Shown here piece after piece: positions 9,499 to 11,310 of a stretch of DNA of 52,273 bases. This DNA is from an uncultured Veillonellaceae bacterium. Its GTDB lineage: Bacteria; Bacillota; Negativicutes; Selenomonadales; Selenomonadaceae. Numbering within the stretch: the first letter of the stretch is position 1; the number at the start of each line of letters is the position of its first letter. The position numbers were made by a program, and so were the translations under genes. The stretch lies in the NCBI GenBank assembly GCA_945949525.1, contig CAMFES010000005.1:1-52273 (forward strand), in the 5' to 3' direction. Under the pieces are notes generated by a model. It was not told where the DNA came from. It ran no database searches and worked only from the letters and a program-made list of their open reading frames with translations.

Positions 9499-9927
9499 AT
9501 GGCTGATACAGACAAAAACGCTGCCGGTGACGATGTCGCCAGACAGCTCATAGAAACGCCCCACGGCGTGCAGGAAAGCATCAAGATGGATTTGCTGGAG
9601 ATGATTCAGGAGGGTGCCGATCCCTTTGAAATCATCTATGCCGTGGCCAAATATCTGGAAGCTGCTTCTGCCGAGCGTGGCTATGCCCAGCACATAATTG
9701 ACAATATCCATACCATTTACGGCATGGCCCTGGGCAATAAAAAACCGCTGGAGGACGAAATCAGTGAGCTGAATATTCGCCGCCAGCGCATTCAGGATTA
9801 TCTTGACACTACCAAAAAAGATGACACCGTCACCGAAGAGGAGCGGGCCCGCCTTAATTTCTCCATCAAGGCACATCAGCGCAAAATTGAGCGCCTGAAG
9901 GAGCTTCTGGCAAAAACAGAAAAATAA
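9499..9927 (+). CDS. small uncharacterised coiled-coil protein
   Basis: This 142-residue acidic, soluble protein is one I do not recognise. The first half is globular-looking (DLLEMIQEGADPFEIIYAVAKYLE). The second half is a likely coiled coil from about residue 88 to the end (EDEISELNIRRQRIQDYLDT ... RKIERLKELLAKTEK). GGAAGGAG lies about 10 bases before the ATG. It has its own promoter. Its last codons lie inside a 38-bp sequence repeated at 11221, and its original terminator appears to have been split by the insertion of the Rpn genes. Confidence 0.82.
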   Translation: MADTDKNAAGDDVARQLIETPHGVQESIKMDLLEMIQEGADPFEIIYAVAKYLEAASAERGYAQHIIDNIHTIYGMALGNKKPLEDEISELNIRRQRIQDYLDTTKKDDTVTEEERARLNFSIKAHQRKIERLKELLAKTEK

Positions 9928-9947
9928 CCCGCACAAAAACAGGTATT
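9910..9947 (+). repeat. left copy of 38-bp direct repeat flanking the Rpn insert
   Basis: These 38 bases are identical to 11221-11258. They cover the last codons and stop of the coiled-coil gene and the left half (AAAAACAGGTATT) of a terminator stem whose right half now lies 1.3 kb away, at 11295-11307. Flanking bases differ on both sides. Confidence 0.9.
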
Positions 9948-10007
9948 ATCGTATGAATTTTCGCTATACATATTTTCGAGAAATATATTCCCTTACTGGC
10001 AAATATA

Positions 10008-10016
10008 TGTTATAAT
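10008..10016 (+). promoter_or_regulatory. extended -10 promoter element for the Rpn gene
   Basis: TGTTATAAT fits TGnTATAAT, 35 bases before the TTG start. No clear -35 is visible (TTCCCT at 17-base spacing), as is usual for extended -10 promoters. Confidence 0.55.
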
Positions 10017-10051
10017 ACATATATACGTTTTTTGCAGAGGGAGGGATTACA

Positions 10052-10912
10052 TTGACTACTATGGAGGAAATCAAGGCACAGGCTCGATATGCCATCAAAT
10101 ACAAGCTGCGCCTGATTGATGATGAATTCATGCGCAAAGTTTTTGAGGGACATGACGAATGTGTAGAACTGGTACTAAAAATTGTGCTGAACAAACCTGA
10201 TTTAAAGGTTATTTCCAGCCAAGTGGAGTACAACATCACAAACCTGCAAGGGAGAGAAATACGCCTTGACATCAGGGCTGTATTTGATGGTAAAATAGTG
10301 AATATAGAAATTCAGCGCGCTGATAGCGGTGCAGGCATCAAGCGGGCCAGGCGCAACAGCAGCTATATGGATGCCGATCAGGAAGACATTGGCCAATATG
10401 GCGAAAACCTTGCAGAAACTTATGTTATTTTCATTACAGAAAAAGACAAATTCAAGCATGCGTTGCCTATGTATCATATTGAACGCTGCATTATGGAAAC
10501 TGGCCAGACTGCGGATGATGGCGCCCATATTATCTATGTCAATGGTGAATACCGCGGTGATGATGCCGTAGGCAGGCTGATGCACGACTTTTTCTGCACA
10601 CAGGCGAAAGATATGCACTATCCTGTCCTGGCAGAGCGTGTCCGTCAATTCAAAGAAAGCGATAAAGGAGTGAGCGACATGAGCAAGATTTGGGATGAAC
10701 TTTTAGAAAAGAGCAAGGAACTCGGTCTTTATGAGGGCGAGCGCCAGGGCAGAATCGAGGGCGAGCGCCAGGGCAGAATCGAGGGCATTAACAATATAAA
10801 TGCACTGAACAACATGCTCATTAAAGCCGGACGCTTGGATGATCTGACTCGTGCCACCACAGATCCGGATTATCAGAAAAAGCTTATGGCTGAACTTCTG
10901 CCATCTGCATGA
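10052..10912 (+). CDS. Rpn-family PD-(D/E)XK nuclease (transposase-like)
   Basis: The 286-residue protein belongs to the Rpn / 'PD-(D/E)XK nuclease family transposase' group, which cuts DNA and promotes RecA-independent recombination. The nuclease core shows the family motif with Asp in REIRLDIRA and ExQ in KIVNIEIQRAD (about residues 68-91). The C-terminal part (from ~residue 210) is a separate small helical domain carrying a doubled GERQGRIE unit. The start is TTG at 10052, with GGGAGGG 6 bases upstream; ATG 10061 is badly spaced. A second ribosome-binding site inside the gene precedes the C-terminal domain. The stop overlaps the ATG of a duplicate of that domain (ATGA). In E. coli, Rpn nucleases are inhibited by such internally started C-terminal products. 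Confidence 0.88.
   Translation: MTTMEEIKAQARYAIKYKLRLIDDEFMRKVFEGHDECVELVLKIVLNKPDLKVISSQVEYNITNLQGREIRLDIRAVFDGKIVNIEIQRADSGAGIKRARRNSSYMDADQEDIGQYGENLAETYVIFITEKDKFKHALPMYHIERCIMETGQTADDGAHIIYVNGEYRGDDAVGRLMHDFFCTQAKDMHYPVLAERVRQFKESDKGVSDMSKIWDELLEKSKELGLYEGERQGRIEGERQGRIEGINNINALNNMLIKAGRLDDLTRATTDPDYQKKLMAELLPSA
10679..10912 (+). other. internal start: possible antitoxin-like C-terminal product of Rpn
   Basis: In frame inside the Rpn gene, AAAGGAG (10664-10670) stands exactly 8 bases before ATG 10679. The site is stronger than that of most genes here. Translation would give a 77-residue protein starting MSKIWDELLEKSKELG. Internal translation of this kind is described for E. coli rpn genes, where the short product blocks the nuclease; applying it here is an inference supported by the site's conservation in the duplicate. 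Confidence 0.6.
10736..10783 (+). repeat. 24-bp tandem repeat, two identical units
   Basis: Two perfect copies of a 24-bp unit encode GERQGRIE twice. The downstream duplicate of this domain has only part of one unit, so copy number differs between paralogues. Confidence 0.9.
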
Positions 10913-11208
10913 GCAAGACTTCTGGCAGAAAGATATGCACTATTCTATCATATCCTGTCCTGGCAGAGCGTGTCCGTCAATTCAAGGAAAGCGATAAAGG
11001 AGTGAGCGACATGAGCAAGATTTGGGATGAACTTTTAGAAAAGAGCAAGGAACTCGGTCTTTATGAGGGCGAGCGCCAGGGCATTGACAGTATAAATGCA
11101 CTGAACAATATGCTCATCAAAGCCGGACGCTTGGACGATCTTACTCGTGCCACTACAGATCCGGATTATCAGAAAAAGCTTATGGCTGAACTTCTGCCAT
11201 CTGCATAA
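10909..11208 (+). CDS. stand-alone duplicate of the Rpn C-terminal domain
   Basis: The frame from ATG 10909 overlaps the Rpn stop by ATGA and encodes 99 residues. From residue 15 on it is almost identical to the end of Rpn (YPVLAERVRQFKESDKGVSD and onward to ELLPSA). The nuclease core is missing. The same strong internal site is kept (AAAGGAG 10996-11002, ATG 11011), giving a 65-residue product that lacks one repeat unit. Most DNA differences from the first copy are silent, which suggests selection on the protein rather than decay. It is either a free inhibitor gene or a recent remnant of a tandem duplication; I favour a working gene from 11011. Confidence 0.65.
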   Translation: MSKTSGRKICTILSYPVLAERVRQFKESDKGVSDMSKIWDELLEKSKELGLYEGERQGIDSINALNNMLIKAGRLDDLTRATTDPDYQKKLMAELLPSA

Positions 11209-11220
11209 GCAAGACTGCTT

Positions 11221-11258
11221 GCAAAAACAGAAAAATAACCCGCACAAAAACAGGTATT
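11221..11258 (+). repeat. right copy of 38-bp direct repeat flanking the Rpn insert
   Basis: Identical to 9910-9947. It here precedes the intact right half of the terminator, so this side keeps the ancestral junction. Together the pair brackets about 1.27 kb carrying Rpn and its C-terminal duplicate. Confidence 0.9.
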
Positions 11259-11310
11259 GACCACATGCGCCGTCCTTTCGGACGAAACACGTGCCAATAC
11301 CTGTTTTCTT
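11245..11310 (+). terminator. Rho-independent terminator, ancestral to the 9499 gene
   Basis: AAAACAGGTATTG pairs with CAATACCTGTTTT (right arm 11295-11307) around an inner CGTCC/GGACG stem, followed by CTTT. It now ends the Rpn unit. Confidence 0.8.

Follow-up and report, generated by a model that had tools for sequence, protein, structure and literature searches.

Organization of the rpn locus

We analyzed a 52,273-nucleotide stretch of DNA (the window) corresponding to contig C5 of a 2.1-Mb draft metagenome-assembled genome that is 83% complete. The locus described here is almost certainly an RpnL/RpnS system – a gene for a full-length Rpn nuclease (RpnL) that contains a shorter internal gene (RpnS) – accompanied by a paralogous, free RpnS gene. 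Its features are all on the + strand:

9904..9947, +, left 44-bp direct repeat, formed by the 3' end of a 142-aa gene together with half the terminator
9962..10051, +, upstream region of the rpn module, defined by alignment and common to the C4 paralogue and G009:C97, with a TATAAT-like box at ~10012
10052..10912, +, RpnL, full-length Rpn/PD-(D/E)XK nuclease of 286 aa with a TTG start (alternative ATG at 10061)
10664..10670, +, ribosome-binding site (AAAGGAG) serving the internal start, read from the sequence, 8 nt ahead of the in-frame ATG 10679
10679..10912, +, intragenic RpnS, a predicted 77-aa antitoxin within rpnL, with a Shine-Dalgarno (SD) sequence, an in-frame ATG and a C-terminal domain with 4-residue repeats
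10733..10780, +, direct-repeat family D3 within the intragenic RpnS, made up of two identical 24-nt units (EGERQGRI)
10909..11010, +, ATGA overlap and leftover nuclease-end sequence before the free RpnS; a 99-aa open reading frame is possible from 10909, without an SD
10996..11002, +, ribosome-binding site (AAAGGAG) serving the free RpnS, read from the sequence
11011..11208, +, free downstream RpnS of 65 aa, copied in tandem from the 3' end of rpnL, its repeat helix 12 aa shorter
11215..11258, +, right 44-bp direct repeat, running into an intact terminator hairpin (11247-11307)

The original prediction named the large gene an Rpn nuclease, and profile matches and conserved catalytic residues bear this out. 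RpnL matches PF12784 above the gathering score (E 7.6e-7) and TIGR01784 at 48.4 bits (E 1.1e-12), slightly below the 52.1 cut-off. Because E59, D73, E86, Q88, R98 and I126 are invariant in an alignment of about 66 homologues, the nuclease core looks intact, and the catalytic residues of the Rpn-family PD-(D/E)XK domain (D73, E86, Q88) are all present. Judged by RpnL, the closest named relatives come from contigs of a metagenome-assembled Selenomonadaceae genome. A search of PADLOC-DB 2.0.0 with RpnL gave no match, and a PHROG search added little for this locus.

The internal start and the intragenic RpnS

Zhong et al. 2023 (PMC10327210) described RpnL as a toxic DNA nuclease that is bound and blocked by RpnS, the product of an internal start. 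RpnS is dimeric, and RpnL and RpnS form a 2:2 complex; specificity depends on how many four-residue repeats the RpnS helix carries, a number that varies (PMC10327210). One extra repeat in RpnC abolishes neutralization, which is restored when both partners carry the repeat (PMC10327210) – a rule that derives from this one Rpn protein. Protection against phage was reported for the plasmid-borne RpnP2 (PMC10327210).

The internal start proposed for the window was read correctly: AAAGGAG stands 8 bases ahead of the in-frame ATG at 10679. AAGGAG at the same 8-nt distance is kept in four close relatives (C4, G009:C97, G009:C57 and G004:C20). The 4-residue repeats begin ~18 residues past the internal methionine, and lengths vary by multiples of 4.

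We gathered Rpn loci first at family and then at class level, yielding 125 and later 174 distinct RpnL. Of the 125 genes, 88 have an in-frame ATG preceded by an SD of 5 nt or longer in the C-terminal domain (taken as the C-terminal 35-150 codons), vs 10 with one in the nuclease body (Fisher p = 1e-25). Counted per ATG, such SDs precede 116 of 647 in-frame C-terminal ATGs, 32 of 532 out-of-frame C-terminal ATGs and 10 of 408 ATGs in the body. This concentration of strong-SD in-frame ATGs argues that the internal start is a feature of the Rpn family in the Selenomonad lineage too. The antitoxin-type start originally proposed at 10679, from which the 77-residue product is predicted, is supported.

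Tandem duplication within the locus and probable insertion of the rpn module

The 3' end of rpnL is tandemly duplicated over ~322-332 bp, from about 10606. The duplicate aligns as two blocks, 10619-10751/10951-11083 (99% identity) and 10782-10931/11078-11227 (93% identity), whose spacing shifts from 332 to 296 nt owing to a 36-nt gap. At the protein level this gap removes 12 residues from the free copy (65 vs 77 aa), or three 4-residue repeats (1.5 GERQGRIE units), while the N-terminal 23 and C-terminal 38 residues are identical in the two RpnS sequences. Over 65 aligned codons the copies differ by five silent and two replacement changes (dN 0.013, dS 0.13), as well as by one silent change upstream (10654) and their stops (TGA/TAA). 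Both replacement changes fall on the branch of the free copy when G009 is used as the reference. These few differences hint weakly at selection on the free copy in the window, which is probably a translated, selected protein; its product would start at 11011.

Much of what was originally predicted for the duplicate agrees with these data: AAAGGAG and an ATG are retained at 11011, most differences between the copies are silent, and the presumptive inhibitor domain appears to have been copied into a gene of its own. As with ypaA of E. coli, a paralogous C-terminal domain gene lies directly downstream with its own SD (AAAGGAG at 8 nt). The suggestion that the free copy is coupled to the nuclease stop by ATGA fared less well. 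The tetranucleotide is present at 10909-10912, but it requires that the RpnL stop has changed from A to G (the corresponding stop is TAA in the G009 orthologue and in the free copy), and the start it contains is without an SD. Because the free RpnS has its own SD before 11011, stop-start coupling is unneeded; we rejected it, and the ATGA is probably incidental.

The AlphaFold model of the free RpnS is all-helical with a mean pLDDT of 68; confidence is moderate in both models obtained (mean pLDDT 68.3 and 69.5). Foldseek searches with them did not return 7TH0, the three-helix dimer of RpnA S, and fold searches gave no usable match. A family profile matched 7TH0 only weakly (E 0.16).

An empty site at G004:C17 carries the counterpart of the 142-aa gene (9499-9927) followed directly by the terminator, with the rpn gene absent; the 44-bp sequence is present there in a single copy, vs two copies flanking the module in the window. 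In alignments, homology to other rpn copies starts near 9962. The tandem duplication probably postdates insertion of the module, because the sequence past the RpnL stop (GCAAGACTTCTGGCA) still resembles the end of the gene. We did not find the same duplication in a second genome; G009:C97 and the paralogue C4 are both without a free copy.

Of 163 rpn loci, 18-20 are flanked by exact direct repeats 17 nt or longer, vs none in shuffled flank pairings, where the longest was 14 nt. Other repeat-flanked loci include L121, L150, L215, L103 and L234. The published statement is that rpn genes are without target-site duplications. We considered whether such repeats signal autonomous transposition and rejected the idea: they are present at some rpn modules but are heterogeneous, consisting of terminators, gene ends, dispersed repeats and tandem arrays.

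Further rpn loci occur in the same genome. C28 (RpnL followed by a free RpnS 12 aa shorter) and C2 (an L-S-L-S array) show the arrangement and repeat mismatch seen in the window, though in Rpn subfamilies other than that of the window. At C28 (L017, 1835-4169), two opposite-strand genes separate RpnL from the free copy; judged by eye from their translations, they resemble a nucleotidyltransferase/HEPN toxin-antitoxin pair. At C2 (L015, 1184-3429), the two RpnL have near-identical nuclease domains and unequal repeats, with internal RpnS lengths of 57 and 77 aa and a distinct free RpnS after each RpnL. C4 (L014, 1282-2256) is a paralogue of the window RpnL (89%) that carries many more GERQGRIE units. 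These units are near-exact 24-nt DNA repeats, pointing to slippage as the source of repeat-number change.

Free RpnS copies and their repeat numbers

Free RpnS copies have been described downstream of rpnE (ypaA/rpnES) and rpnC (rpnCS), and the ypaA protein (RpnES) is expressed in E. coli (PMC10327210). The E. coli work that the original prediction referred to exists, and the free copy is less novel than it first seemed, since such copies are already described there. The window locus adds another example of this known arrangement; what is new here are the internal-start enrichment counts, the purifying selection on free copies and the repeat mismatch between RpnL and free RpnS. The text of Zhong et al. 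2023 (PMC10327210) offers no explanation for the existence of free copies, and our literature search, mostly of journals open without subscription, found no later papers on them.

E. coli rpnE-ypaA resembles the window locus in that a free RpnS with its own SD comes after an RpnL containing an internal start, and in that the free copy differs in its 4-residue repeats. The direction of the difference is reversed: K-12 ypaA carries KLEG once more than RpnE, whereas the free copy in the window has fewer repeats. K-12 RpnE is annotated as inactive, in contrast to the window RpnL with its retained catalytic residues, and the free start lies 12 nt after the RpnL stop for ypaA vs 98 nt in the window. 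Unequal repeat number is also found between E. coli rpnC and its downstream rpnC S (in N3, Nissle 1917, STEFF_1, O145 and AZ153), although these free copies have another N-terminus (MEIKTRRETRQTLAQW) and are more diverged. At E. coli rpnE loci without a free copy (L253, L254, L256, L258), RpnE carries the tail of ypaA, which suggests either recombination between the copies or an ancestral state.

A survey of other rpn loci for C-terminal duplicates, as the original prediction had proposed, showed that 13 of 174 distinct RpnL are followed within 2.5 kb, and in the same orientation, by a free copy that is similar and full-length. Among pairs of RpnL and free copy with at least 90% identity, pooled pN/pS is 0.16; older pairs (dS 0.4-1.8) give omega values of 0.07-0.33. 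These low values argue that free copies across Rpn loci are kept as proteins under purifying selection, with the caveat that detecting copies by similarity pushes dN/dS estimates down.

For repeat number, we made 16 Selenomonad comparisons of RpnL with its free copy at an identity of at least 65%, omitting L015, L122, L150, L180, L188, L208 and L217 for low or partial similarity. Repeat number differs in 15 of the 16, by -12, -8, -4, +4, +8, +12 or +20 residues – all multiples of 4 – while the domain outside the repeats is 67-99% identical. The sole matched pair, L165, is an exact duplicate that may have arisen very recently or be an artefact of assembly. All 12 E. coli allele pairs, K-12 included, are likewise mismatched (rpnE/ypaA 7/7, rpnC 5/5), two of the rpnC differences by our count not being multiples of 4, which brings mismatched pairs to 27 of 28 overall.

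This frequency does not amount to an excess that would indicate active diversification. Nearest-neighbour RpnL pairs differ in repeat number equally often (91 of 111; Fisher p = 0.47), and 43% of permutations of the rpnE pairings are without any match. The mismatch may therefore reflect simple repeat instability. Free copies are nevertheless not tied to the repeat number of the adjacent RpnL, unlike what would be expected of a cognate antitoxin.

In the window, the difference between the free copy and the adjacent RpnL is 12 residues, where the RpnC rule calls for equal repeat number. Being three repeats shorter, the free copy is thus predicted by the published rule not to neutralize its neighbour. 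The original prediction that the copies differ in the number of GERQGRIE units holds; of the two consequences it envisaged, altered pairing specificity gains support from the one-repeat result for RpnC, whereas an effect on dose is made less likely by the 12-residue mismatch.

Possible roles of the free RpnS

We favor a reading in which RpnL is a DNA nuclease toxin of anti-phage type encoded by a gene-within-gene locus. RpnS made from 10679 would dimerize through the repeat helix of the RpnL C-terminal domain and block the nuclease; by construction, this 77-residue protein would always be repeat-matched to RpnL. The later tandem duplication of the 3' end would have created, as in rpnE-ypaA, a second RpnS gene that begins at 11011 and is served by a ribosome-binding site of its own. 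With the same flanking helices and three fewer repeats, the 65-residue product would not pair with the adjacent RpnL and would most likely serve as an antitoxin for earlier, sister or incoming RpnL alleles with fewer repeats. The gene may also act as a recombination donor able to swap the C-terminal domain of RpnL. We put the probability of this whole statement – an RpnL/RpnS locus whose free copy is both an antitoxin of another specificity and a recombination donor – at roughly 55%; translation of the RpnS products, dimerization, the lack of cross-neutralization and the spare-specificity role are its conjectural steps.

The free copy might instead supply an extra dose of cognate antitoxin that blocks the adjacent RpnL despite its shorter helix. 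The shared SD, the identical 23 N-terminal and 38 C-terminal residues, the expression of the ypaA protein (PMC10327210) and the purifying selection on free copies are all in keeping with such a dose effect, but a mismatch of one repeat was enough to end neutralization by RpnC (PMC10327210) and repeat numbers are unequal in 27 of 28 pairs, and we regard it as unlikely. It is quite unlikely that the free copy has no function and is only what a recent tandem duplication and slippage during replication left behind, now heading for loss: free copies elsewhere combine low dN/dS with high dS, retain their SD and start, and have arisen repeatedly and independently. Decay of this kind would nonetheless agree with the restriction of the free copy, among close relatives, to the locus of the window genome (G009:C97 and C4 are without one), with the loss or fusion of free copies in E. 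coli strains, and with a mismatch that equals general repeat variability.

A role as competitor, in which imperfect heterodimers with the intragenic RpnS or RpnL weaken or sharpen inhibition and so tune RpnL activation, draws on the identical flanking helices of unequal repeat length and on the dimeric RpnS and 2:2 complex (PMC10327210). It is highly improbable, since the published mismatch experiments suggest that interaction is lost (PMC10327210).

Extending the spare-specificity reading to the family is tentative and somewhat doubtful. Free RpnS genes in general would then be selectively kept but non-cognate, with repeat-number specificities other than that of the adjacent RpnL. They would guard against RpnL alleles of former, sister or incoming origin, and the intragenic pair could switch specificity without self-poisoning. 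If free copies are indeed maintained yet mismatched to their neighbours, K-12 ypaA included, they would be more than additional antitoxin. They would then offer a test bed for specificity switching in a gene-within-gene pair whose parts must change together – and the window locus, with identical flanks and helices three repeats apart, provides a clean pair.
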